Assembly (NCBI GenBank): GCA_036936605.1
Contig: JAUPFV010000002.1
Location: 268,468,770 to 268,532,769, forward strand
Direction: 5' to 3'
DNA: 64,000 bases
From: Limnanthes douglasii subsp. nivea
Taxonomy: Eukaryota; Streptophyta; Magnoliopsida; Brassicales; Limnanthaceae
Notes under the pieces: model-generated
What the model saw: only the letters and a program-made list of their open reading frames with translations
What the model was told of the DNA's origin: nothing
Database searches by the model: none
Translations under genes and position numbers: made by a program
In this document: piece by piece, positions 3,001-64,000 of the stretch
How positions within the stretch are numbered: position 1 is the first letter of the stretch
Layout: every line of letters begins with the position of its first letter

Positions 3001-3554
3001 ATCATCTTTCTCAATATTTTGAGAAAAATCCTCGAAGTCTGACGTAAAAGATTCACTTGTATCGGTCGGAATGTGTTGATGCTTATCATTTTTCTCTTCC
3101 TAGAGGAGTGATATCATTTTTCTGACTGAAACTGTATTTCTCGATGATCACTTCACGCTCTGTGAACATTGTAAGACTCGTCGAACGTATCTTCCAAATC
3201 CTTATTCTTATTTACTCATCGCACTTCAGACTATACCCTACCATATTGAAGTAATTGTTCCCTTTGATCAAGCTGATCGTTGAAATCAGTTATTCTTTCC
3301 AGTAATTAATTCATCTGATATTCCACATTAGGCTGGTCGCATTGATCATTTCCTTACATTTTACCTCGGTTTTCTCCTATAACCAAGTCTGCTCGAGCAC
3401 CTCTTTCTCCACCAATATTGCTGGATCAACTCGGATTTCGGAATCCATTATATTTCTGTAATCTGATCTTTTATCTTTAAGGTTTTAGATCTGAGATCGA
3501 GGTACCACATGAGCTTTCACTGTGGTCGTCAATGATTCAATGTGGTCGTCAATG
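1..3554 (-). mobile_element. Decayed Tat-clade Gypsy retrotransposon, internal region
   Basis: On the minus strand this stretch aligns by eye with the younger Gypsy element at 27485-33256. The gag start lies near 3.4 kb and the order runs down to reverse transcriptase below 1 kb. Clear shared blocks are a zinc-knuckle-side segment (1697-1903), the region before the protease (1492-1722), and the aspartic protease at 1262-1459. The protease reads DIGSSINVL where the younger copy has DTGSSANIL. The start of reverse transcriptase is recognisable at about 560-840. Stops and frameshifts break every domain, so it is a relic. The homology becomes unclear below about 540, where the element probably continues out of the window. 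Confidence 0.8.
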
Positions 3555-49765: not shown

Positions 49766-50266
49766 GGCTAGGTAGGCTCTTCTTTCGCGAGCTTTAGATT
49801 TTTTATGACATTTTACAATGTAAAGAGGTCATTAGGTGATTCCGTTTCGATTGTAAAAAGAGGTGGGTGCGCACAATACAGTATCGTACGGTCTCCTGTT
49901 GGTGATTCTGACTAATATTTATAAAAAAAAAAAATCATCAAACGAATATTATTATCAAAAGAATATTATTAGGGAAATTGCACCTAAAGTACCCACTCAA
50001 CTATTCAATTGTCACTTTATTACCCAAGGTTTGATCAATTGTTATTTAATACCCAACTCAACTATCTTATTGTCACTTACAACCTAATATTATTTTAATA
50101 CTCTAACTACCCTTAACCCATTATATAAGCATATTTTTCTGTTTTCTTTCTATTTTTTTTAGCTTTTTGAAGATTTGAATTTGTTAGCCGCTCTAACCAC
50201 CTAACCCTACGAACCACCACGGAGACCGGTTGAAATCACATTTCCGGTGATCGGAAGCTGCTGAAG

Positions 50267-51049
50267 GTTTGTTTATTTATGTAGGTTGTGGTGTTAGTCC
50301 TGTCTAACCACTGTTTTTTACGTATAAGAGTTGATCGTGGTTTTTTGCAATATGTTGGCTTTGAAGTAATCGTTTTGCTTGCTTTTCAGGTAATTACCTA
50401 ACGATTTCGAAGTTATTTATTGGTTTTCTCTGTTGGAATAGGGACTATTCTACTGTTTTTAGACGTCATTGCCTGATTTCGAGCTTTTCTCTGTTTTTTG
50501 GGTTATAGTGATCTGTTATTGTTTGTTTAATATTGTTCGTTATATACTTATGTCCTTGTTTTCTGATGTTATATACTATTTTTATAGTGCTTTAGTTTTT
50601 ATTTCATGTGTAGATTACGAGTTTTAGTTGTCCAGGCCTTACAGTAAAGATGCGAATTGTTTGGTGTATTCGATGAGAAAGATGCTAATTATATGATCAA
50701 TTCGCATGGTGACATGCGAATCACATGAACGAAGTTTACATACGTTTCGCATGTTAGGATGCGAACTATGTGAAACTATAGAGTAGTGTGTGTTGAAACA
50801 AATACCAGGACTTTAGAGAATTTTTTACACAGTTCGCATGTTATGATGCGAACTATTTATAACTTTTTAGAGTATTGTACATCAAAACAAATATCATGAC
50901 TTTTTTTACACACAAATATCAGGACAAGATGCGAATTACTCGATGTATGTATACACAATTCGCACGTTAGGATGCGAATTGTTTGATGCAGTGGTAAATA
51001 ATTTGCACATAGTTTTTGTGACTAATAACTAATAACTTGTTCTGTCCAG
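50267..51049 (+). other. Predicted 5' leader intron of the MULE transposase
   Basis: The donor AAG|GTTTGT at 50267 and acceptor GTCCAG|G before 51050 frame a 783-bp intron, placed just before the ATG at 51058. Its second half holds four TTCGCA...TGCGAA inverted pairs (see repeat entries). Confidence 0.5.
50640..50985. repeat. TGCGAA-type palindromic repeat cluster 1
   Basis: About ten TGCGAA or TTCGCA words. Inverted pairs include ATTCGCATG/CATGCGAAT near 50700-50721, and CAATTCGCA/TGCGAATTG with an 8-bp loop near 50955-50980. Two weaker pairs are near 50748 and 50832. Confidence 0.85.
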
Positions 51050-52274
51050 GGTAAGAGATGTCCAAATCACGAGTTTGTATTTTTAAATATGGTCACCAAA
51101 CCGCAATTTTTCCTTTCACGGAGTTTGAAAGCTTTCAAAGTATCCAAGAGTATGTGGAGAGCACATGGGAGGATCTTGCCACAGATGACTACCTAATTAC
51201 CTAATCCTGTGGGGATCACAATAATTGTTTCTTTAATAACCAGAATGATTTTGTTGGGTTGGTGTTATATCTTGATTTGGAGCGTTTAAAACGGGTTAGT
51301 TTTCTCATAGAACAGCACGTCTTCGATAAGGGTTCTGGTAATAAAAGTTATGTTGATAAGAGCTCTGGTGGTAAGGATTGTGGTGTAAAGCGTAAAGAGC
51401 GTAGCTTGATTTTGGGAGAACCATCTCTCAATCAACTAGTTAGCGGGGAGAGTAGTAACGGTTTAGTTAATTCTGATCACAGAAAAAAACAACTTGCTAC
51501 TGCTGGTTGGGCTGATGCTTTTACAGGAGTGGGTCAAGCTTTTGAAGAAGGTGTTGGCGGTCTGAGGTTATCTTTGTGCAAGTTTGCGTTAGACCATGGT
51601 TTTTCTTTCAAATACATGCACAACACAGCAAATAAGATCACTGCTTATTGTGAAAATAAGTTCACAAGTGGGTGCAAATGAAGGCTTTATGCATCTATTG
51701 ACTCAAGCACCAGCTTGATGACGATCAAGAAGTATGTCCCTCACCATACTTGTAGTCCTGTTTTCTCCCAAAAGCATAAGCATAAGCGGCACAGTCATTT
51801 GACATCAGATTTGATTGCAGAGGAAATTCAGGATTCTCTACGGACCTGTCATTCGTTGACAGCCAAAACCATACAATCGACTATCAAACAAGATTACGGT
51901 CTTGACATCTCTTATCGTTTGTCATGGAATGCTTTAGAAAAGGCTAGGAGGGGAGTTTTTGGAGATAGTTCAAGTTCTTTTATTTTACTCAGCGGATACT
52001 TCAAACGCTTGAAGAGTCGGGATATTACTTCAGACTTCCAGTTGGAGTTGTCAGCTGGAAACCGATTCAAGCACTGTTTTGTAGCATTCGGTTTGTCCCT
52101 TCGGGGTTTTCATTCATGCCGTCCAATGTTGTTTGTCGATGGAACCCACTTATATGGCAAGTACAAGGGTACCTTGCTCACTGATGTAGCTAGAGGTGTC
52201 TAATGGTTGAGGAACCACGGTTCAAAGCTGACAACCTGCTTAAGAACTGACGGTTTACCTGTGAAACTGGCCCA

Positions 52275-52436
52275 TTAGGACTGCAACCTGGCAGGACCGC
52301 AACCCGCCAGGACCGCAACCCGTCCGGACCGCATAAGGAGCAACCCGCCAGGACCGCAACCTGGCAGGACTGCAACCCGGCAGGACTGCAACCCGGCAGG
52401 ACTGCAACCCGGCAGGACTGCAACCTGGCAGGACTG
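52275..52436. repeat. 16-bp minisatellite near the left hAT end
   Basis: Tandem units GGCAGGACTGCAACCC and variants (GCCAGGACCGCAACCC), about ten copies. They include a variant block with CATAAGGAGCAACCC. It is GC-rich against an AT-rich background. Confidence 0.92.
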
Positions 52437-53005
52437 CGAAACCACGGTTTATTTGTAAAAAACCGGCGGTTTATTGGTAAATATTATGCTGATTTTATTT
52501 ATTTTATAACCAAAATGTTATATTTAAAAAATATTGAGATATTGCATATTATTATAGAATTATTATTACATTTTTGTTAATATTAATTTGTTTTGGTTAT
52601 TAATATTTTAAGTGTTGTAATTATTATATAGTCCAAAATTTTAAATATTACTTATGTTATTATCACATTTTGAATATTATTATTATGTTTTTAGATCTAA
52701 TACAAACGAAAACTATATCTTATCATGTTAAAATATTACAAATTCTATGGTTATAATTTTAATATTACATTTTGATTACTATTATGATTTGGTTATAAAT
52801 TTTACAAGTGTTTGTTATTATTTTTTAAACCAAAATTAGATCTTATGAAGTTATAAGTATTTCATAATACAGTTGTTGTTGTTATAATAAAAGATAAAGT
52901 CATTTTTGGATAATTTAGTCGTTCACAGTTTATACTCGTGCGGGCCAGGAGTTGTACAAATGTTTTCAAATTACAATACAAAATAGCAAAAAACTATTAC
53001 AAACA

Positions 53006-55141
53006 TCATTCATCTCCAGCTTCGTCTTCTTCGTAAGTAAAATCTTCGTCGTCATTTTCGTTTTCTTCCGCAATTTCTTGTTCAAGTATCTCTTCGTAAT
53101 CATCCGGATAATCTTCGAAGATGTCGTCTACGTTCACTTCGTCTCTGAACTCTATGTCTTGCATCCTTTTATCCGCCGCTGTCCAATCCTTAACTGCCAC
53201 AAGCACTCCAAGTGCTTTTCCCGTCAATCTTGTTCTCTTAGTCGTGTATTGCAACCTCGCTTGGCTGAAAGCACACTTACTTGCAACTGTAGACATAGGT
53301 ATAACATAAATCTCTTTTACAATCCTGCAAAGAATAGGAAACTCTTCAGTTTTGGTACCCCGCCATCTTATGATATCTTCAATACCTTGGTGGGGATAAT
53401 TCGTAAAATCAAACCTAGTGCTCCAATATCTATACAGCTCATTATCAGATTGAGGGGTTTCTGTAACATTGTTTCGTAACATTGCCAATTGAACATAGTT
53501 AGTAGATCTCCCTCTACCCCTATTGTTACCACTCCTTACATTTGTAGATGTATTTGATCTATATCTTGCAGCATACTTATCACAGATATTATACAAACTA
53601 TCATATATACCGCTAATATACCCTTCAGGGTCAATTGGTTCGGTCGGTGGTTTATCTGTAGGAAACCGTACAGACTTATAAAAGCATCTAACTAGCAATT
53701 CAAATTGTTCTTTTCGTGAAAAAGGATCTAAAAGGCAAGCAAATAAATAACTATCAGGGATTGGATGAAAATACTTTGTGAACTTATATTCCATTCCAGG
53801 CACCATGTCTACGCATGCATAATGTGATCTAAATTCATCCATATGCATGGCAAGATTAGCAATCGTGAAAAGGGCCAAATGAGCATTAGGTTGATTTTGT
53901 GAAGAAAAGGTTAGGGTGTTTTCTTTAAAAAGTCTTAAAAATCTTAACATGTGTGCACAAAATTTCCAATGATCTGGTTCAATTGGTGTTTCACGATATG
54001 CATTATAAAACGTCGTAATCTCTTCTTTAAAAACATGCGCACGTGCAAGCATTGTGTAAGTAGAATTCCATCTAGTTTCGACATCTAATAAAAGTTTCTT
54101 ATATTTTTTCCCATTTGAAGTAACAAGTGTTTTAAAAGCTCTTTTTTTAGCAGCGGATGTCGAGCAAAATAGGATCCCATTTTTTATAGGGGTAATATAA
54201 TCACCATGAACCATACGTATTCCTTCTTTTGCAATTAATTGAAGTACGTGGCATAAACATTTGGTGTGAAACAATTTTGGAAAAGGGGGATTGCAATCTT
54301 GTATAAGCAATTGTATAGCACTAATGTTAGAAGATGCATTATCCAACGAAATAGACATAATCTTGTTTTTAATGCCATAAACATTCATGCATTCAATCAT
54401 ACTCTCCCTAATTATTTGTGCGTTATGCTTCCCAATTGATTCAAACCATATAATTCTCCTTTGGATGACCCATTGGGCGTACATCCAATGGAGGGTAACA
54501 CATATCATATCTAAATCAGTAAAAGTAGCTATGTCACTAGTAATCGAAACATTCCATGGCAAAGTCTGCATAGTTTGAATAATCTCTTTTTTTCTTTGTA
54601 AATAATATTTAAAGGCTAGCGATCTCAAAGAGGTACGTGGAATGCGTGTTGCCTGTGGGTTTACCCCAGCTTGCATCCAATTTTCGTATCTCCAAGAATC
54701 CCCAAAACTAAATGGTTGTAAACTACCGACTGCATAAATCATTGTTTCTTCCTTATACGTATCGTGGTTAAACTCAAAAGGAAGACCTGTTTGAGGGTTC
54801 GTGCAAACATTAGTTGGGTTAGGTTTTGTAGGATCATATACTGAATGTTTCATTAAATGTTTTACCATAGTGCTAGTGCCCATATTTATAGATCCACTTA
54901 CGTGAAGATAAGTTTTTTTGCACACGTTACAAATACAAGACAAACCATCTTCTGATAGATGGTAGTGTTTCCAAATCCAAGATCTTTTCTTACGAGATCT
55001 CCCCCCACTAGTACTTCCACCACCACTTTCGTGGGAGGAGAGTGTGTCAATGTAAGGGAATTCTGGAGAAAAATCATCCATGGTATTGAGATCCACATTA
55101 GATGGTTGGTTTATCCTAGTATTTCTACGTTTTGAAGTCAT
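53006..55141 (-). CDS. hAT transposase, intact ORF (711 aa)
   Basis: Single-exon ORF of typical hAT length. Domains in order: a basic Ser/Gly-rich start; a BED zinc finger at about residues 54-102 (CNVCKKTY with HLMKHSVYD); an RNase H-like catalytic region with SLDNASSN and the TRWNSTYTM block; a DUF4413-like middle; and a C-terminal dimerisation domain (IPMSTVASKCAFSQ, about 625-640). In that last motif the usual Glu of ASE is Lys. The Asp/Asp/Glu triad could not be fully assigned by eye. The start at 55141 precedes a leader of about 90 bp with tandem repeats. No stops or frameshifts were seen, so the protein may still be functional. Confidence 0.93.
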   Translation of the reverse strand: MTSKRRNTRINQPSNVDLNTMDDFSPEFPYIDTLSSHESGGGSTSGGRSRKKRSWIWKHYHLSEDGLSCICNVCKKTYLHVSGSINMGTSTMVKHLMKHSVYDPTKPNPTNVCTNPQTGLPFEFNHDTYKEETMIYAVGSLQPFSFGDSWRYENWMQAGVNPQATRIPRTSLRSLAFKYYLQRKKEIIQTMQTLPWNVSITSDIATFTDLDMICVTLHWMYAQWVIQRRIIWFESIGKHNAQIIRESMIECMNVYGIKNKIMSISLDNASSNISAIQLLIQDCNPPFPKLFHTKCLCHVLQLIAKEGIRMVHGDYITPIKNGILFCSTSAAKKRAFKTLVTSNGKKYKKLLLDVETRWNSTYTMLARAHVFKEEITTFYNAYRETPIEPDHWKFCAHMLRFLRLFKENTLTFSSQNQPNAHLALFTIANLAMHMDEFRSHYACVDMVPGMEYKFTKYFHPIPDSYLFACLLDPFSRKEQFELLVRCFYKSVRFPTDKPPTEPIDPEGYISGIYDSLYNICDKYAARYRSNTSTNVRSGNNRGRGRSTNYVQLAMLRNNVTETPQSDNELYRYWSTRFDFTNYPHQGIEDIIRWRGTKTEEFPILCRIVKEIYVIPMSTVASKCAFSQARLQYTTKRTRLTGKALGVLVAVKDWTAADKRMQDIEFRDEVNVDDIFEDYPDDYEEILEQEIAEENENDDEDFTYEEDEAGDE

Positions 55142-55197
55142 TTTAAAACTAATAACAATTTTTTTTTTAAATATGCAATAAAATACTAATAATAAAA

Positions 55198-55292
55198 TCT
55201 AAATTTAGACTAATAACAAGATATAACAACTAAATTTAGACTAATAACAAGATAGAACAACTAAATTTAGACTAATAACAATTAAGAAACAA
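55198..55292. repeat. Short tandem repeat in the hAT promoter region
   Basis: About three units of roughly 33-35 bp built on AAATTTAGACTAATAACAAG. They lie just upstream of the transposase start. Confidence 0.8.
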
Positions 55293-55458
55293 TTTGCGGA
55301 AAAACAAAAATCAAACAATTTCGAAAGTAGGAGTAGAATATGTAAAATAAGTAATTGTAGTTTTCTAGAACTTTTCGAACAAATAGATAGATTTAGAGAG
55401 AAGTAGAGAGTTGTTTGAGAGGTGTGAGTATTGGTGTCCGGATGCTAGGCCGGATGGT

Positions 55459-55493
55459 CCGTTTGATGACGTCATGCTGACGTCATCAAACGG
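55459..55493. promoter_or_regulatory. Perfect 16-bp inverted repeat with two TGACGTCA sites
   Basis: The arms CCGTTTGATGACGTCA and TGACGTCATCAAACGG are exact complements around a TGC loop. TGACGTCA is the palindromic core bound by plant bZIP (TGA/CRE-type) factors. It lies about 320 bp upstream of the transposase ATG and just upstream of a plus-strand TATA box. It is well placed to act on both divergent genes; that role is inferred. Confidence 0.8.
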
Positions 55494-55515
55494 CTAGTAG
55501 GAGAAAAAAAAAACC

Positions 55516-55523
55516 TATAAATA
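55516..55523 (+). promoter_or_regulatory. TATA box of the second hAT gene
   Basis: TATAAATA stands 23 bp after the palindrome. It is followed by a CT-rich, ACTACAAATCT-repeating leader toward the coding region that becomes open by 55700. Confidence 0.7.
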
Positions 55524-55737
55524 CTACATACATCCTCCTATATTTTTCACTCCAACTCCACTACAAATCTCTCCCCTCTCTCCCTCTCCACTACAAATCT
55601 ATCCCCTCTCTCTACTACACTTCTCTAAATTTTTTTATATTTTTCAAACTCTATTTAAATTTCAGGTTTCGCAAATATCTTCAAAAAGAAAAAAGAATGC
55701 TCGTAAAGGTGGATGTAGTGAACCAACCCCTTCCGAA

Positions 55738-57166
55738 TTGAGAGAGGTGGAACATATGTTGTTTCAATCCATGGAGCGGGAGGTAACGGAGAGCGAGACT
55801 ATCGAACATCGCCCCGAGGGGGAGATTTGCATCCGTGGTAATCAGCAAGGAGGTCGAGGTGTAACAAAAATTTGGTCCGGTATGTTTCTGGACTACGAGG
55901 AACTGATCCAAATAGAGGGTATGCAAAAAAATTTCAAACTTATTGAACCTACTAATGGCCTAGGTTGGATGACACTAGCTACATTCAAATGTGATTGGTA
56001 TATAGAACTAGTGCGAAGGTTTTATGCCACAGCTAGATTAATTGAAAATGATCCAAGAGGTTTAGGAATGAATTGTTTCATTAATGGTAAAGAGTATAGT
56101 TTTTTTGAAACTGATTTCGGAGATCTTTTTTCCGTTCCAACCCATGATATGTATACCGGTAATAAATTACCTACCATTAGTTATCGCCCTACGATCTGGA
56201 GTGATGATTGGCCTTTGTCTTACGAAGAAGCAGTAGAGATTCTTACTTGTGCTGGTGCGGAAGCTCCGAAAATTAGCGGTAAATTTCGAGCCATGCGGGG
56301 TAATTTGGATGGTATTGGGAAATTAGCTTTGAAATTGGTAAATAGTATATTTCTCCCCCTAGTAACAATGATTCGCAGCTTTCATATATTCAAACATTTG
56401 TTACTGCTTTTATCATTCGAAATCAGGGAATAATTAATTTACCTAGCTTGATGATTCGAAATATGGTTACGAGGTGTGGTACGGATAAACTACCTTATGG
56501 GATGATATTGAGTAAATTGCTTGTTTCGAAAGGAGCTGATGTGAGTATGTACACTCCGGTGAATGTGAGGCCGACTAGTGCTATAGGTAGAAACTCTTTG
56601 CGTTTGCAGGAAATATACTCTTAGGGATGGAGAGTTGATTTCGAAATTGGAGGCATGGAACAACCATAGACAATACTTGAATCAGATATATACTGCGAAC
56701 GGTCTTACAAAACCGCCAAATCCACCTACTCAGTATCGAGTTGAGGCTGCAGCGTCTTTCGATCTAAATGCTAGTGCTTCTTCTGGAGTACCGCCACAAC
56801 AAATACGAACCGATCGCGAATTTGCTGAGTTTGCACATACTCAACAAAAGGAATGGCATGATGATTTTACAAAATGGCAAGGTGAATTTCAAAATTGGCA
56901 GGGGGGGGGGGGTAAATGACCACCTTAGCCAGATATAGCAGTGGCAAGTAGGGGTGAATGATCAACTTGGTCACCTCCAGCAGTGGCATGGTCAATACGA
57001 GCAGTGGCATGGTCAATACGAGCAGTGGCATCATGGACAAGATCAATGGAATGAGCGATTTGCAAACTCTCAAGCCCAACAGTCGGAGTATATGCGACAG
57101 ATGATGGAGAACATGCATTTGCAAGGTCAACCACCTAACAACAACAACAACGATGAAGCTCCTTAG
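55738..57166 (+). pseudogene. Second hAT-borne gene, plant transposon protein of unknown function, frameshifted
   Basis: The coding frame is open upstream as SKRKKNARKGG, but no in-frame ATG was found before the one at 55756. The body (VRRFYATARLIENDPRGLGM, INGKEYSFFETDFGDLF) resembles the putative plant transposon protein domain found in several plant elements. The frame shifts near 56345: the matching text continues in another frame (FVTAFIIRNQGIINLPSLM) to a stop near 56624. A C-terminal part follows at 56635-57166, with WHDDFTKWQGEFQNW, an 11-G homopolymer (near 56901-56911) that ends the frame, and 21-bp repeats encoding QWHGQYE. Function is unknown. Confidence 0.6.
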
Positions 57167-57819
57167 TTTTTCGCATTTGATTTTCATTATCGTTGTAATG
57201 TTTGTCTTTTTTATTTGATTAAACAACTATGTTACTTGTTTGGTTTTTTTTAATGAATTGTTTGTTTTGCTTCTATTTTTTATTAAATGTTATTTAAATC
57301 ACTTACCTAGCTTTCAATTTTTATTTTGTTCTTTACAATTTACAAGTAATTTATGTTTATGCATATAAAATTCTAATATTGAATAGTTCGAAAATACAAT
57401 AAACTATATAATGCATCTAACCATAAACACTTCAAGCTTGAAAGAATCTAAAGAATCACCTAATAATTTAAAATTTTAATACAATTATATGTCTAATAGG
57501 TATATAATATTTAATAGTAATATATTATTCAAACGTATCAAAATCAAATTACAATTATTTTTTTAGAATGTAATTGATGATTATAAAATTTCGATTAAAA
57601 TGATAACATATTTAAATTAAAATACATGAAATAGAATAATTAACTCAATTATTGAAATTAGATTCAATTAAACACTTACAAATTAATTTTAAATAACATT
57701 ATAAAATATTCTGATAAACGGTTCTTAAATGGTTAAATGGTTTGGGTGATGGTTTGAACTGGTAAACGGTGCTTAAATGGTTCGTCTGGTGGTTTAACTG
57801 TGAAACTGTCCCATTAGGA

Positions 57820-57981
57820 CTGCAACCTGGCAGGACCGCAACCCGCCAGGACTGCATAAGGAGCAACCCGGCAGGACTGCAACCTGGCAGGACCGCAACC
57901 CGGCAGGACTGCAACCCGGCAGGACTGCAACCCGCCAGGACCGCAACCCGGCAGGACTGCAACCCGGCAGGACTGCAACCC
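57820..57981. repeat. 16-bp minisatellite near the right hAT end
   Basis: Same unit and same orientation as the left array (GGCAGGACTGCAACCC). It starts with the same lead-in CCCATTAGGACTGCAACC and includes the same CATAAGGAGCAACCC variant. Confidence 0.92.
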
Positions 57982-58114
57982 GTTGTTCTGATTTAAACGG
58001 TGCGGGTTGGTGCTGGTTCAACCCGTTTGACACCTCTAGATGTAGCAAAGGACGGAAACAACGGTTAGTTACATTTATCTAGTTAATCTGAATGATGTTT
58101 TTGTGTGAAAATGC

Positions 58115-58360
58115 TGATGCAATTCGCATCAGAGGCTGCGAATTAAACAGTGTTATGATCTTAACCTTTCGCATCTTGTGCTGCGAACAAGGTATTATCT
58201 GAAACTGTACTTACCTCGCAGCTTGAATTAGGTATTATTTGAAGTTTTCACAAACAATTCGCATGCCAAGCTGCGAATTCCATGTATGAGCAATTAAAAT
58301 GTCCCATATAATTCGCATGACAAGCTGCGAATTGTTTGTTCCAGGACAGCATGCGAATGA
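58115..58360. repeat. TGCGAA-type palindromic repeat cluster 2 (transposase intron)
   Basis: Inside the intron 58064-58420, four inverted pairs: near 58119, 58168, 58258 and 58311. For example AATTCGCA, an 8-bp loop and TGCGAATT. A single CATGCGAATG follows near 58351. Confidence 0.88.
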
Positions 58361-59486
58361 TTTACAATTTTTAACACTTTGGGTACTGTTGTACTGTTCA
58401 TTTGATCTGCTTTTTTCCAGGACTATTCCCTGTTGCTGTTGGTGTAGTTAACATTGAAGATTGTGACAATTGGATGTGGTTTTTAGGGTGTTTGAAACCA
58501 CATTTGCTGGATCGGCAGATCACATTTGCTGGATCGGCAGATCACATTTATTTCAGACCGTCATTTTGGTATCATTAATGCTGTTTCTGTCTTGTATCCA
58601 AACTGCTATCATGCGTACTGTTATTTCCATCTCATGCAGAATTTGAAAGCCAAACTGGAACATACTAACAGAGACTATAAAAAAAGGATGTTGAGTTTCT
58701 TCCATCGTCTTGCTTATGCTCCCAGTCGAGAGTTTTTTAAAGATATACTAACGGTTTTTCTATGTGAAGGTGGTGACAGAATGAGTGATTTTCTTGCAAA
58801 TTTACCCCTTGAAAAGTACGAGCAGGCTTACGTAAAAGGGAAGCGATACGGCTATATGGGTTCTACTGCAGCTGAATCGTTTAACAATCAGATTAAAAAA
58901 TATTGCGGCCTACCTATTGTTGAGTTTATTGATTGGATTAGAGTCTTGCTTATGACTCAAGTTTCACGAAGATATGAAGAAGGTCTCAGCTGGAGTACTA
59001 ATTTGGTTCCCGAGTACGAGAAGAAGCTAAAGCAGAATGTTGACATGTGCCAGAACTTGGGTAGTACGTAAGTCCTCTACCGCCATGTTCGAAGTCTTTT
59101 CGAATCTTGTGGCTGTTGTTAATCTGTTGGATTTCAAGTGTTCATACGGATCATGGCAACAAGAGTGTTTTCCATGTCCTCATGCTTTAGCGGCATTATA
59201 ATACACCGACCAAGATCCATTGACTGTAATAGAACCCTTTTTTACGGTTAAGAATTACAGGGAAAGTTACTCTTTCAACATACCAGCTTTAACTGATTTT
59301 GGCGAAGGGTCCAGCGCTAACGATCCTTCTTTTGTTGAAGTTCTGCCTCCGAACGTTAAGAGACGCTCAGGAAGGCCTAAGAAAAAACGAATCCCTTCTA
59401 GAGGAGAAATCTCAACCAAGCAGTTGAGGTGTGGCCGATGTTCGAAATCAGGCCATAACCGGAGGACTTGTGATGTTCCAGTTTAA

Positions 59487-60235
59487 GGACAATCCGTGTT
59501 GTGGACAATTCTGGTTGGCCAGATCACATTTATTTGTAGTACTGTTATTGTTCTGTACAACAAACTAAACATTTTTACATTCTTATGTTTTGTAATGTTA
59601 TTATTAGAGTTACGAAATGTTAAGTGCTTTGGGTTGTAAGCATTTCGCATCATGTGTTGCGAATTGTGTACAATATGTTGGTATATTGTTGCAAACATCT
59701 ATCAGGATTACATGCGATTTTTGTGTGAAATTCACCAGGATGCGAATCGTTAGTAAAATCATATCAAACATTTATCAACATTTGAGGCTGCGAACTGTGT
59801 TGAGCTATAACGTAATGCCTTTTCATATAAATATCAGGACTCCTGGCTGCGAATTATGACCAGAACATATGATAATAATTATGCGCATACGTTTCACATG
59901 ATAGGCTGCGAATTATGGCCAGAATTATGATGCGAATGGAGAACAATTAGAAGTCCTGATATTTGTCATATGATAAGCTGCGAAGTGTGCTTTAATAAAA
60001 ATACCAGGATATTCAGTAAGGTTGAAAATAAGTAATATATCAGGTTAACATGCGAATGATTTGCAAATTGTAATTGGATGCGAATCGTTTATATGATTGA
60101 AAGTCTGTAAACAAATTGGATTACAAAAAAAAAGATTACAATATTGTCATGCACTAACAAATGTTTACATAGATCACTACAAGCTACTGCTGTTAGTTAG
60201 TTTCATTCCAAAAAATCAAAAAACAAAAACCAACT
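59487..60235. repeat. MULE spacer with TGCGAA-type repeat cluster 3
   Basis: After the transposase stop the spacer has no ORF. It carries about ten TGCGAA words between 59645 and 60085, mostly as GCTGCGAAT or GATGCGAAT. One is paired (TTTCGCATCATGTGTTGCGAA near 59644). The phrase TATCAGGA or ACCAGGA often precedes a copy. Confidence 0.8.
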
Positions 60236-60718
60236 CTAGCAGTTAGTAGAGGATTCATCACCATCCTTTTCCTCTTTCTCCTCTTTGTGCTGATCATCTT
60301 TCTCTTTCTCCTCTTTCTCTTCCACTTCCTCTTCATCTTCAATATCTACGTCCACCATGCTTAAAAAATTTGTCCTTGGTGGACCAGCTTCGTCTTCCCT
60401 CTTCCTTTTGTTGTTTCGAACCACTGTCGTTTGAGGTTGCACATTTTCTGGCTGAGGTGCAGCAGCAAGCATTGGAACCTCTTCTGGCTGAGGTTCAGCA
60501 GCAACCAGTGGAACAACTTCCACTGGTTGAGAGTCAGCAGAGTAGTAGTCATCATACATGTCTAACCCAAAAATAGATATTGGGCTGTTTGGTGGTGCTG
60601 CTGGCATGATCAACTCATCACTCCAGTTAACGGTTAAGGATGACCAGGAGTCACCCAGAGAACCGAGTGAACCAGAGTTTGAGTATGAGGTGGTGGTTGT
60701 GGTGGTGGAAAAAGACAT
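60236..60718 (-). CDS. Small acidic nuclear-type protein in the MULE (160 aa)
   Basis: Single-exon ORF. It has a Ser/Thr-rich start (MSFSTTTTTTSYSNSGSL), a short repeat of EPQPEEVPMLAAAPQPENV type, a basic cluster NNKRKRE that could be a nuclear localisation signal, and a C-terminal Glu/Lys-rich tract likely to form a helix. A minus-strand TATA box stands about 85 bp upstream. I do not recognise a family. It lies between the transposase and the protease gene, on the protease strand, and is open, which argues for a real accessory gene of the MULE. It could also be a remnant of a longer gene. Confidence 0.6.
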   Translation of the reverse strand: MSFSTTTTTTSYSNSGSLGSLGDSWSSLTVNWSDELIMPAAPPNSPISIFGLDMYDDYYSADSQPVEVVPLVAAEPQPEEVPMLAAAPQPENVQPQTTVVRNNKRKREDEAGPPRTNFLSMVDVDIEDEEEVEEKEEKEKDDQHKEEKEEKDGDESSTNC

Positions 60719-60802
60719 GACTGTTTGAATTCGAAGAGAACAAGAGGTGTTTTTAAAAAAATATAGAGTTTGTTGTAAAATTAGCCTCTGGTTACTAGAG
60801 GT

Positions 60803-60810
60803 ATTTATAG
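60803..60810 (-). promoter_or_regulatory. TATA box of the small acidic-protein gene
   Basis: TATAAATA on the minus strand in the context CCCTATAAATACC. It is 85 bp before the ATG at 60718. Confidence 0.7.
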
Positions 60811-60974
60811 GGAAAATAGGTAATCATTACATAGCCTCCATGTCCAATCAGCATTTAATGGGTTATGTACTTGATTATATTGTTTTGTGTGTGCTCAATG
60901 GAGAAAACGTTTACCAAGGCATAAGCCACAACTTGTTCGTATCCTTGAACTTTATATTTTGAATTTTTTATTTC

Positions 60975-61225
60975 TGCACCAGGCTGCGAACTGTTTTTAA
61001 GGTATATACCAGGCTGCGAACTGTTTGTGTAGTGATAAGTACGCATCTATCAGGTTAGGATGCGAACTATTTGCATATAAGTTAGGCTGCGAATTATTTA
61101 CTGATAAATAAGCATCTATCAGGTTAGGCTGCGAACTGTTCACACATACCAGGGATTTGCTGCGAATTATTTGGTTGGAATTAGTAGAATATTAATCAAC
61201 CCTTATAGATCAGGTTATGATGCGA
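60975..61225. repeat. TGCGAA-type repeat cluster 4
   Basis: About seven unpaired copies in one orientation, mostly as CAGGCTGCGAACTGTTT or AGGATGCGAACTATTT. They lie in the spacer between the small gene and the protease gene. Confidence 0.85.
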
Positions 61226-61655
61226 ACTATAAGCTAAGTAATATTCACATTTCTGAAAATGTAATTTGTTTATGTATGCACAACAAACTAAAAATTACAA
61301 CCAATGTATTTACAAGCAAAAGCATAGTGTTTTAAATCGAATCAGCCATATGTGATGCGGTCTTTGTCATTTAAAAAGTAATAAAACATTTTTGCTCTGA
61401 AGGTAGTTACCATATCTGCATCGTATTTTTTCTGCACGGATCCATGCTCGATAATATCTCTTGCATATTTGCAGACAAATATACCACAGTCCAGGGTGCC
61501 TTGCTTTTGTTGTACGATACCTCTTTCAACTTTCACCCTCCACCCTGTCTTATATTTAGGTAGGAATCCTCTATCCAACAAATATTTGATCTGTTTATAA
61601 TAATTAGTGTTAGGAATAAGCACAAAAACAACAACAGTTGGTGTCATACAATTCG

Positions 61656-61870
61656 CACATTAGGCTGCGAATTGTATGACAACAAATCCAACATGGGCAT
61701 GTCACACGATTCGCAGCTTAAGCTGCGAATTATTTGATATGCAATCTATTTTTTTTGAAATGCCCCGTTCAACACAATTCGCATCATATGCTGCGAATTG
61801 AGTTATGGATAGGCTGCGAAAAGCAATTGATTTACTCACATTTCGCAGCATATCCCGATCACAGTTCGCA
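61656..61870. repeat. TGCGAA-type palindromic repeat cluster 5 (protease intron)
   Basis: In the intron 61591-61923, three inverted pairs are present near 61656, 61709 and 61777, plus unpaired copies. The one at 61709-61730 is a perfect 22-bp palindrome centred on CTTAAG. Confidence 0.9.
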
Positions 61871-62797
61871 ACATGCATACTTAAAATGTGTTTAAATTTA
61901 AGTGTATGGTTTGGAATATTTACCAGTTGTGCAGGTGTCCTTGTGGTGTAGTCTATGGCTTTCAGCTTAGGCAGAAGCGGATTGTAGTTTGAAATTGTCC
62001 TGCCGTCGACGTCAATGACGAGCAACGTCCAGTGGTTTATCTGGTCCTTTGTCTCGGTGCATACTGGAACCATGATGATGTTGGCATCTTTGCGCCCCAT
62101 TCTAAAAGCCATGTCCACCAAATTTTCTACTTGCCAGCCTGCTTTCATTTGATGCTGCATCCAAGCAAGAGTATGTTAAAATGAGAACATTTTCTGAAAT
62201 CTTTGTTCAATTTACCTGAGCTAAACTTACTGCAGTCATGCCCGAAATCAGTACGGTGTCATGATGCTCTCCTTTAGCTTTAGTGCATGGAACTTTGAAG
62301 TCTGCTTCTTCAAGTATCTTTCGAATCCAAGCATCGATAACCTAAGAAAGAAGTTGTAGATTTATGTTAAATATACAAGACATATTTGAAACATTAAAAA
62401 TAGAATTGGTTGACAATTGGATACCTTTACGTCCAACTCCAGTTCTAAAGGTAGTGCCATTGCATCACTCGCTTGCATTCTGATTCTGTATGTAAACTTG
62501 GTCTCTGGTAACTGCCATACCACTGGATCAGGGGTGTTGCTCTCGTAGGCTTTAGCTAACTGTATTTTGTGGTATTCTGCCACATCGATACGGTCAGTTA
62601 CTTTTGTTTTCTTTGACCAGTCGCTGTATTCTACTTTTGGCGGTTCCCGTACTGTTATAATGAACTCTTCCTCTTCCTCTGCCACTTGAGGCTGTGTTTG
62701 TGTCAGTAGAGTAAAAACTGGCTCCTCTATCTCTTTACTGGGCTCGAGCTTAGTAAATAACAAAAATCAAAAGTAGAAGGGTGTCAGTAATTATAAT

Positions 62798-62955
62798 TGC
62801 GAACTGTTTGGTTCCAGATGAATAAATTTCATAGTATCTATCAGGGTAGGATGCGAACTGTTCGAGGTTCCACTAAACAGTTCGCATGATACCCTGATAT
62901 TCGTTTGTAATACCCCAATCAGTTTGCTAACACAAATCTTATGTTATGATGCGAA
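62798..62955. repeat. TGCGAA-type repeat cluster 6 (protease intron)
   Basis: Four copies in the intron 62749-62976: GCGAACTG near 62800, GATGCGAACTG near 62851, GTTCGCATG near 62881 and GATGCGAAA near 62949. Confidence 0.85.
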
Positions 62956-63424
62956 ATCATTATAAGTAGCCCTTACCGCACGGTCAGCGACAACCAATGC
63001 CGTTGACTTGTTTGGCATAGGATCTAGATCGTGTCGGCATAAATCATTAATGTCATCCTCCGACATGTTCTCCAAGGACCGTTGTATTATAGAATCGTAA
63101 TATACATTATCAATTTCATTTAAAAATGTCTGTGAAACTTGAGTGTAAATACCATCAACAAAAGCATCGGGTAAACCTACTGTGTTATCGTGGGATTCTG
63201 GATCTTGCAGTTGATTTGTTACCGGGCCTACAGTTTCATGTTGGCTTAACAATTCTGACTTTGTTGACAGCACCGTTGGTCTTTGAGGTTCCACTGAAGA
63301 AGTGGTGTTGTCTTCTAAGGATGGTCCTTCTTGGCTGAGTAGTTCTGTCTTCTCACCGGGATGGACAGGTTCTGACTCTTGAGGTGCTATCTCTTGCGTT
63401 AGCCTTTCTCTCTTTGCCAAGGTT

Positions 63425-63765
63425 ATCTGTTGCTGCTGTTGTTGTTCTTGTTGTCCTTGTTACTCTCGGTGTTGTTCTTGTTATTGTTCTTGTTGCCGGT
63501 CTTCGTGTTGAACTTGTGGCTGCTGGTGTTGTTGCTGTTGTTCTTCTTGTTGTTGCTGTTGGTGTTGTTGTTGTTGTTCTTCTTGTTGTTGTTGGTGGTG
63601 TTGTTGTTGTTCTTCTTCTTGTTGTTGCTGTTGGTGTTGTTGTTGTTGTTGTTCTTGTTGCTATTGTTGTGGTTGCTATTGTTGTTCTTGTTCTTGTTGT
63701 TGTTCTTGTTGTTGATGCTGGTGTTCCTGTTTCTGCTGTTATTGTTGTTGTCTTTCGTCTATCTC
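63425..63765 (-). repeat. Glutamine-codon-rich low-complexity tract
   Basis: CAA/CAG repeats on the minus strand encode a poly-Gln/Glu/His stretch in the protease gene N-terminal half. At least three TAA codons interrupt it in frame. Confidence 0.9.
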
Positions 63766-64000
63766 CTTTGGGTCATTCGGAGGAGACTCGTGTCTTTCTT
63801 TCTCTGTCTGTGGCTCCATGATGTCTATCTCTGCAGATTGTACCGGTATGGGTGAATGGTTGGTATCATCGTCCCTTTCTTCTGGCAGTATTCCATCAGC
63901 ATGGTGCTGATCAGCATTAGACACGGATGCTTGCTGATCAGTGGATTCTTCTCTGTCTGGAAATGCTGGTACCTGCTCAGCTATTGGGCTTTCAATCCGA

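Follow-up and report, generated by a model that had tools for sequence, protein, structure and literature searches.

The question raised by this locus is why one transposable element should carry the same six-letter word, TGCGAA or its complement TTCGCA, dozens of times in its non-coding DNA, often as paired inverted copies. The element is a Mutator-like DNA transposon (MULE) carrying an Ulp1 gene, and it lies in a 64,000-bp stretch of the genome of Limnanthes douglasii subsp. nivea (contig JAUPFV010000002.1), hereafter the window. It occupies positions 49972-64000 of the window on the plus strand and ends 3,046 bp beyond it (G000:C112:268535815), which gives a length of 17,075 bp, including a nested hAT element of about 5.85 kb. 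Its terminal inverted repeats are imperfect. The target duplication of 9 bp, ATATTATTA, computed at 49963-49971 and just past the right end, is perfect. The explanation that we favour, at a probability of roughly 60%, is that the single words (half-sites) and their 8-bp-spaced pairs (dyads) are predicted sites of an element-encoded, probably dimeric anti-silencing protein resembling the VANC proteins of the Arabidopsis VANDAL elements.

The window holds 68 occurrences of the word, of which 55 fall within 50640-62955. In the 2,879 bp of MULE non-coding DNA we counted 49 copies, where a first-order Markov model predicts 1.6; 500 dinucleotide shuffles of the same DNA averaged 1.6 copies and never exceeded 7. 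No other hexamer of this fraction comes close to TGCGAA in over-representation. The original prediction, made on the sequence of the window, of about 50 copies where composition allows one or two was thus borne out. Positions 1-50,000 of the window were at background (13 copies, 12.9 expected by the Markov model), and the nested hAT, earlier described as lacking the word, holds six scattered copies against an expectation of 2.1, which is closer to background. No copy was found in the 4,681 bp of MULE exons. Since only 1.6 copies are expected there, this zero is the background level, so that the reported absence from exons holds, whereas an avoidance of exons is not demonstrated. The original prediction also implied that the element stops at 62955; the part beyond the window adds 18 copies, making 67 for the whole element with none in exons (exon limits as drawn).

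With regard to their arrangement, the 49 non-coding half-sites consist of 12 dyads and 25 unpaired half-sites. All 12 close pairs have the form TTCGCA-8 bp-TGCGAA, and spacers of 6, 7, 9 or 10 do not occur; the dozen pairs that had been announced are there, whereas their loops, given as 6-10 bp, are exactly 8 bp in every one. Among the unpaired half-sites, 22 are in plus and three in minus orientation. Cluster 1 (50651-50978) lies in the 5' leader of the transposase gene and has 10 half-sites, including dyads at 50701-50720, 50746-50765, 50833-50852 and 50959-50978. Cluster 2 (58123-58357), in the transposase intron, has nine, with dyads at 58123-58142, 58168-58187, 58258-58277 and 58312-58331. 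The spacer 3' of the transposase carries cluster 3 (59644-60084; 10 half-sites, one dyad at 59644-59663), and a further spacer carries cluster 4 (60985-61226), whose seven half-sites share a single orientation, two of them lying inside a 27-bp tandem repeat. Two clusters fall in introns of the protease gene: cluster 5 (61652-61870) with nine half-sites and dyads at 61652-61671, 61710-61729 and 61778-61797, and cluster 6 (62798-62955) with four half-sites and no dyad. Non-coding DNA of the same gene beyond the window holds a 25-bp tandem repeat of 4.5 copies with five TGCGAA (L005:1553-1665).

A search of the 1.78-Gb host genome for AATTCGCA-N{6,10}-TGCGAATT gave 5,960 sites, 5,548 with a spacer of 8 and 412 with a spacer of 6, 7, 9 or 10, and the reversed-pattern control gave 0. 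The window element was compared with 12 further copies, some of them partial, taken from the clusters behind the first-listed dyad places, and with four smaller stretches. Alignment blocks longer than 150 bp were 66-91% identical to the window copy, and in our grouping the copies fall into four subfamilies. TGCGAA is present in all 13 copies and ranks first among hexamers in 12 of them, a TA repeat ranking first in H939. Pair spacers were 8 in 117 cases and 9 in one, with no other value between 0 and 25, and the unique unpaired sites numbered 203 in one orientation and 60 in the other. Exon-like stretches held one motif each in six copies and none in seven. Blocks aligned to the window element contain 46 of the 50 genome dyads listed, and the other four fall between blocks inside a copy (three placed by script, the fourth by position, its copy spanning two stretches); of the 65 motifs in the four smaller stretches, 64 fall in homologous sequence. 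Perfect 9-bp duplications also flank copies D03, I133 and F72, and an imperfect one flanks B12 (ends read by eye). Transposase matches at 88-95% identity, 150 of them scored from 16,327 first-look candidates, include many with long open frames. As had been proposed, the motif belongs to the element as a whole.

This distribution bears on two alternative readers of the sites. Host transcription factors driving expression of the element's genes would be compatible with dense, conserved sites beside and within genes. However, the first 50,000 positions of the window are at background, the 50 listed dyads all belong to copies of this one MULE family, the sites extend throughout the introns and spacers of all element genes, and a sister family has another dyad (see below); we therefore consider host factors distinctly unlikely. 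The original prediction also offered binding by the element's own transposase, which through its N-terminal DBD_Tnp_Mut domain would serve transposition or autoregulation and not anti-silencing. The element does encode a DNA-binding domain of MuDR type (PF03108, with a score below cut-off). Among zinc-finger domains related to it, the WRKY-GCM1 kind binds ATGCGG-like sites, and subterminal transposase-binding arrays are known in En/Spm. In the present family, however, the element ends are motif-free over about 680 bp at the left and about 240 bp at the right (nine copies measured), the terminal inverted repeats that were read hold no motif, and the sites are located in leader, introns and spacers. 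Binding at the ends is thereby disfavoured, and the transposase seems to us an unlikely candidate.

The shape of the site is informative in itself. Over the copies, the pooled half-site consensus is roughly TANG[AC]TGCGAA[TC]TGTNTG, and a dyad is formed by two half-sites overlapping head to head with TA at the centre. The flanks of single sites are much like those of dyad half-sites, and where the partner arm is missing a second word, [AC]TATCA, recurs in all four subfamilies. At the partner position (-14) of 662 half-sites, 234 arms were exact (117 dyads, each counted twice), 88 had one mismatch and 51 had two, compared with 0.2, 2.2 and 8.1 for the control (mean of nine offsets); CpG changes account for 41 of the 88 one-off arms. 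The window element contributes 32 exact arms and one one-off arm. Mean loop identity among unique dyads is only 0.45, and the arms are retained beyond control hexamers, so the original observation that arms match while loops vary stands. Judged from the letters of the site, a protein-bound dyad is probably the best-fitting of the roles that were offered. Hexamers in the same orientation show periodicity peaks at 8.5, 10-10.5 and 14.5-15 bp, a pattern confounded by the relatedness of the copies.

Pairing of the arms in transcripts, as RNA hairpins or small-RNA precursors, was another suggested role. The arms are complementary, and dyad 61652 has long matching arms (61636-61687; 14 of 16 letters beyond each core arm match, as if from a recent inverted duplication). 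Outer arms match at 84 of 192 positions against 72.9 by permutation (P 0.015) when this dyad is included, but at 70 of 176 against 64.6 (P 0.12) without it. Against hairpins, 25 of the 49 half-sites have no partner, letters in the loop centre and in the flanks are conserved, and the sites occur in genes transcribed in opposite directions. The proposed check for compensatory changes pointed the same way: one-sided changes far outnumber compensated ones, with ratios of 21:0 for TTTGCA, 20:1 for TTCACA, 21:2 for ATCGCA, 8:2 for TTCTCA and 4:0 for CTCGCA. The rarity of compensated changes indicates conservation of the DNA sequence and not of a hairpin. Hairpins were rejected on the unpaired half-sites and these counts, and we regard them as very improbable.

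The last of the suggested origins was a tiny inserting palindrome, whose footprints would account for many alike short units scattered in non-coding DNA. A duplicated target around each unit was therefore sought. Flanking direct repeats of 4 bp are indeed more frequent around dyads than at random positions (0.443 vs 0.306), but those of at least 5 bp are rarer at the 112 unique dyads (0.054 vs 0.122). Furthermore, only one of 45 insertions or deletions of 12-80 bp, scored in six pairs of copies, holds a whole dyad. Lacking an excess of the longer repeats, this origin was rejected and is scarcely credible.

To assess conservation we used a symmetric test, in which a hexamer identical in two chosen copies is scored as kept or lost in a third, with the controls thinned to one in six. 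It replaced an earlier test that had picked sites intact in the window copy and was so biased towards the motif. Of 25 such comparisons between copies, 23 showed higher retention of the motif than of control hexamers, and P was below 0.05 in 16; examples are 42/53 against 1884/3786 and 11/13 against 1067/3596. Conservation goes together with turnover. Tandem repeats with at least two motifs are present in all 13 copies, their sizes and places varying by copy, with motif-bearing units of 24 to 261 bp, and 14 of the 45 insertions or deletions mentioned above carry the motif. Since such arrays and indels differ between copies, growth by small tandem duplication is visible.

The same turnover would result if a repeat unit spread neutrally through tandem duplication and gene conversion, and the nine retention comparisons that were not significant also fit that explanation. 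Against it, the arms and the 8-bp spacer stay constant while the loops differ, and the arms are kept beyond control hexamers between subfamilies. No motif entered the exons of the window element, though a single one is present in exon-like stretches of each of six other copies. Neutral spread is, in our judgement, improbable.

Decay of the core can be followed through its CpG. Outside the motif, the observed/expected CpG ratio is 0.38 in the window MULE non-coding DNA and 0.60 in its exons, and 0.59-0.77 in whole elements. In subfamily I the words expected from CpG decay are at expectation (TGTGAA 38 vs 37, TGCAAA 47 vs 46), and they are not above expectation in subfamily II either; in subfamily IV (E37, G937, H939, J1725 and K1736) they are somewhat raised (71 and 78 vs 52 and 58). 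This last subfamily has 46 exact and 35 one-off partner arms, and other variants are raised there as well: TACGAA (52 vs 20 expected), TGCGAG (24 vs 9) and TGCGAT (32 vs 16). These variant words may represent evolution of the motif rather than its decay. Two further observations concern single words: the arm ATCGCA is also raised in subfamily IV, and TTCGAA, one letter off the motif, is above expectation in subfamilies I-III (60, 36 and 44 vs 18, 12 and 21).

A sister MULE family offers a comparison within the same genome. Searching the genome with a Liquidambar MULE protein gave 136 matching stretches; the analysis covered three of these loci, of about 6, 5.5 and 6 kb, together with 1.8 kb from a fourth. 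Locus L037 has no TGCGAA; instead, four TARCAG-N10/11-CTGYTA dyads (0.02 expected under the Markov null) lie in the transposase intron and the 3' spacer, with the palindrome TTTARCAGTA..TACTGYTAAA at 1820-1950 and 3133-3271. Two TARCAG dyads are present in L040, whose sequence matches L037 at 97% identity over 937 bp, and L039 has one with a spacer of 8 plus one TGCGAA. The TARCAG dyad is absent from all 13 TGCGAA copies. Genome-wide, TTTARCAGTA-N{4,9}-TACTGYTAAA occurs at 53 sites (control 0), and among the 50 listed, 29 are at most 15 kb from 10 of 71 transposase matches taken from that protein search, where 0.06 would be expected. That the sister family uses its own, different dyad has genuine though modest support, as these dyads are partly tandem copies of one another. 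A 12-bp array near the L037 transposase (CCGATGATTGTG, 1138-1310) was considered as a dispersed motif and rejected, being one local array. L038, which has a MULE-like gene and an open reading frame (ORF) labelled PB1-like, showed no motif enrichment (2 TGCGAA in 5,501 bp).

Which protein might read these sites can be approached through the genes of the element. The transposase gene comprises a first exon (51059-52190, plus strand; the PF03108 match), which stop codons and the hAT insertion disrupt, and a second exon (58420-59485, plus strand) with a broken frame, which encodes the MULE domain (PF10551, E 2.5e-06 in the window and 1.2e-09 in copy A17) and a C terminus labelled zinc-knuckle-like. 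The hAT itself (52191-58038) has an 8-bp target duplication, GATGTAGC, and its ends hold arrays of a 16-bp unit, AGGACTGCAACCCGGC, at 52277-52437 (about 10.5 copies) and 57816-57982 (about 10.9 copies). An acidic ORF of 160 aa on the minus strand (60236-60718) has no family match and has like stretches in 11 of the 12 other copies. Exons of an Ulp1-type (C48) protease gene follow on the minus strand at 61342-62755, within limits that we drew, and in our reading they belong to one gene together with a conserved N-terminal exon located past the window edge (L005:2408-2938). The protease domain matches PF02902 (E 1.2e-05, above cut-off) and has homologous stretches in all 12 other copies, several of them broken; a search with the Ulp1 protein, covering 391 candidates, retrieved no homologue at E<=0.001. 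The domain's His, Cys and Asp we take to be its catalytic residues. Most copies retain the His, which is altered in A17; J1725, K1736 and E37 have lost the Cys; and where Asp would normally stand, every aligned copy but G937 has Asn, which makes protease activity uncertain. Elsewhere in the window lies a phosphate-transporter gene, labelled PHT2;1-like from homologue names and up to 84% identical to plant proteins.

From the combined pattern we infer that a protein binds the motif, that the MULE family encodes this protein and that its binding has an anti-silencing effect. The first candidate for the binder is the product of the Ulp1 gene, whose N-terminal domain belongs to no recognised family. 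A sequence-specific DNA-binding protein of this kind would read the dyads as a symmetric dimer, single half-sites acting as weaker or cooperative sites. It would bind densely in the leader, introns and spacers of its own family, where the host puts DNA methylation, and by removing or blocking silent marks it would make the element's genes expressible; a dense set of sites in each longer non-coding block would then keep these genes unsilenced. Small tandem duplications would supply new sites, so that the motif set grows and turns over, while selection in active copies or lineages would maintain arms and spacer, and the arms would decay once activity is lost. A more specific and rather unlikely version holds that a dimeric, MULE-encoded reader of TTCGCA-N8-TGCGAA is physically coupled to the Ulp1 domain and strips SUMO from silencing proteins at the dyads, each sister family being addressed separately through another dyad. 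If true, this would be sequence-addressed anti-silencing via deSUMOylation, expanded in a single plant genome to over 5,500 dyads.

Several results weigh against an element-encoded anti-silencing protein. The Ulp1 gene encodes an N-terminal domain that is well conserved among copies and has no convincing match in Pfam, NCBIfam or PDB, and the domains named for VANC, DUF1985 and DUF287, were not recognised in it, although single-sequence scans could miss a diverged domain. Immediately beyond the core, the two outer letters of one arm agree with those of the other at 17 of 24 positions, against 13.9 by permutation (P 0.036). No 10.5-bp helical peak was found for unit centres, a result confounded by related copies. 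In the retention test, P was 0.05 or more in nine of the 25 comparisons; two showed no motif excess (J1725 from F72=C14 and G937 from J1725=K1736), and for D03 from A17=B12 the motif fell below CpG-holding controls (0.72 vs 0.78). Furthermore, the 13 copies share ancestry and tandem repeats, and the comparisons, which we chose, are not independent. Finally, the motifs of VANC21 are described as arrayed in one orientation, whereas about half of the present motifs stand in fixed inverted pairs.

Were VANC-like binding correct, its interest would lie in the legibility of the system. How an element frees only its own copies from silencing has, in the literature considered, been elucidated for Arabidopsis VANDALs. 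In the present case the sequence itself reveals the target code as a rigid dyad at thousands of sites, with many copies that have long ORFs and a sister family with another dyad, so that coevolution of protein and motif would become testable in another plant genome. The dyad would also offer a natural palindromic address for sequence-specific demethylation.

Precedents for such a system exist. TNPA of En/Spm is an element-encoded protein that binds many short direct and inverted subterminal motifs and has a demethylating effect; unlike that CACTA-superfamily element, with its motifs near the ends, the present MULE has ends without the motif. Closer is VANC21 of Arabidopsis. VANC21 binds YAGTATTAY, which is dense in the introns and in the intergenic and terminal non-coding DNA of VANDAL21 and sits in tandem repeats that differ between copies; VANC6 uses other motifs, AGTTGTCC/AGTTGTAC, in VANDAL6/8; and VANC proteins strip DNA methylation sequence-specifically (PMC5735166). 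RNA-directed DNA methylation works on the same non-coding regions as VANC motifs occupy (PMC10398659). Some VANDAL elements have VANC genes with an Ulp1 domain, conserved in eudicots, according to a review (PMC13317346).

The present element differs from VANC21/VANDAL21-Hiun in the sequence of its motif, in the CpG of the core, in having terminal inverted repeats and in that a VANC protein was not recognised by sequence. It differs from VANC6 also in motif sequence, and no palindrome is reported for the latter. The words palindrom, inverted and dimer are absent from PMC5735166, and palindrom is also absent from PMC10398659 and PMC13317346. Titles and abstract openings revealed no paper on a palindromic VANC-type motif, although Sasaki 2022 (EMBO J) may describe one, and by title nothing relevant on TGCGAA with transposon or MULE. 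The original prediction knew of no described feature of this kind. For the non-coding motif itself that no longer holds, as the VANC target motifs of Arabidopsis VANDAL MULEs are a close precedent (PMC5735166); for the word and its palindromic form it may.

There are also likenesses. As in VANDAL21-Hiun, a short motif crowds the introns, spacers and other non-coding DNA of a single MULE family, is mostly absent from exons, seldom occurs elsewhere and lies in tandem repeats that differ between copies (PMC5735166). As with VANC6 in VANDAL6/8, a related family has a different motif, here the TARCAG dyad of the sister family. As in the Kaonashi/KIU VANDAL MULEs, non-coding motifs occur together with an Ulp1-domain gene, one of three genes (PMC13317346), a likeness drawn from the review's description. 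Because the present element shares this anatomy, a mode of action like that of VANC is probably its best reading; the palindromic form and the TGCGAA word appear to be new, though the kind of system is known from Arabidopsis.

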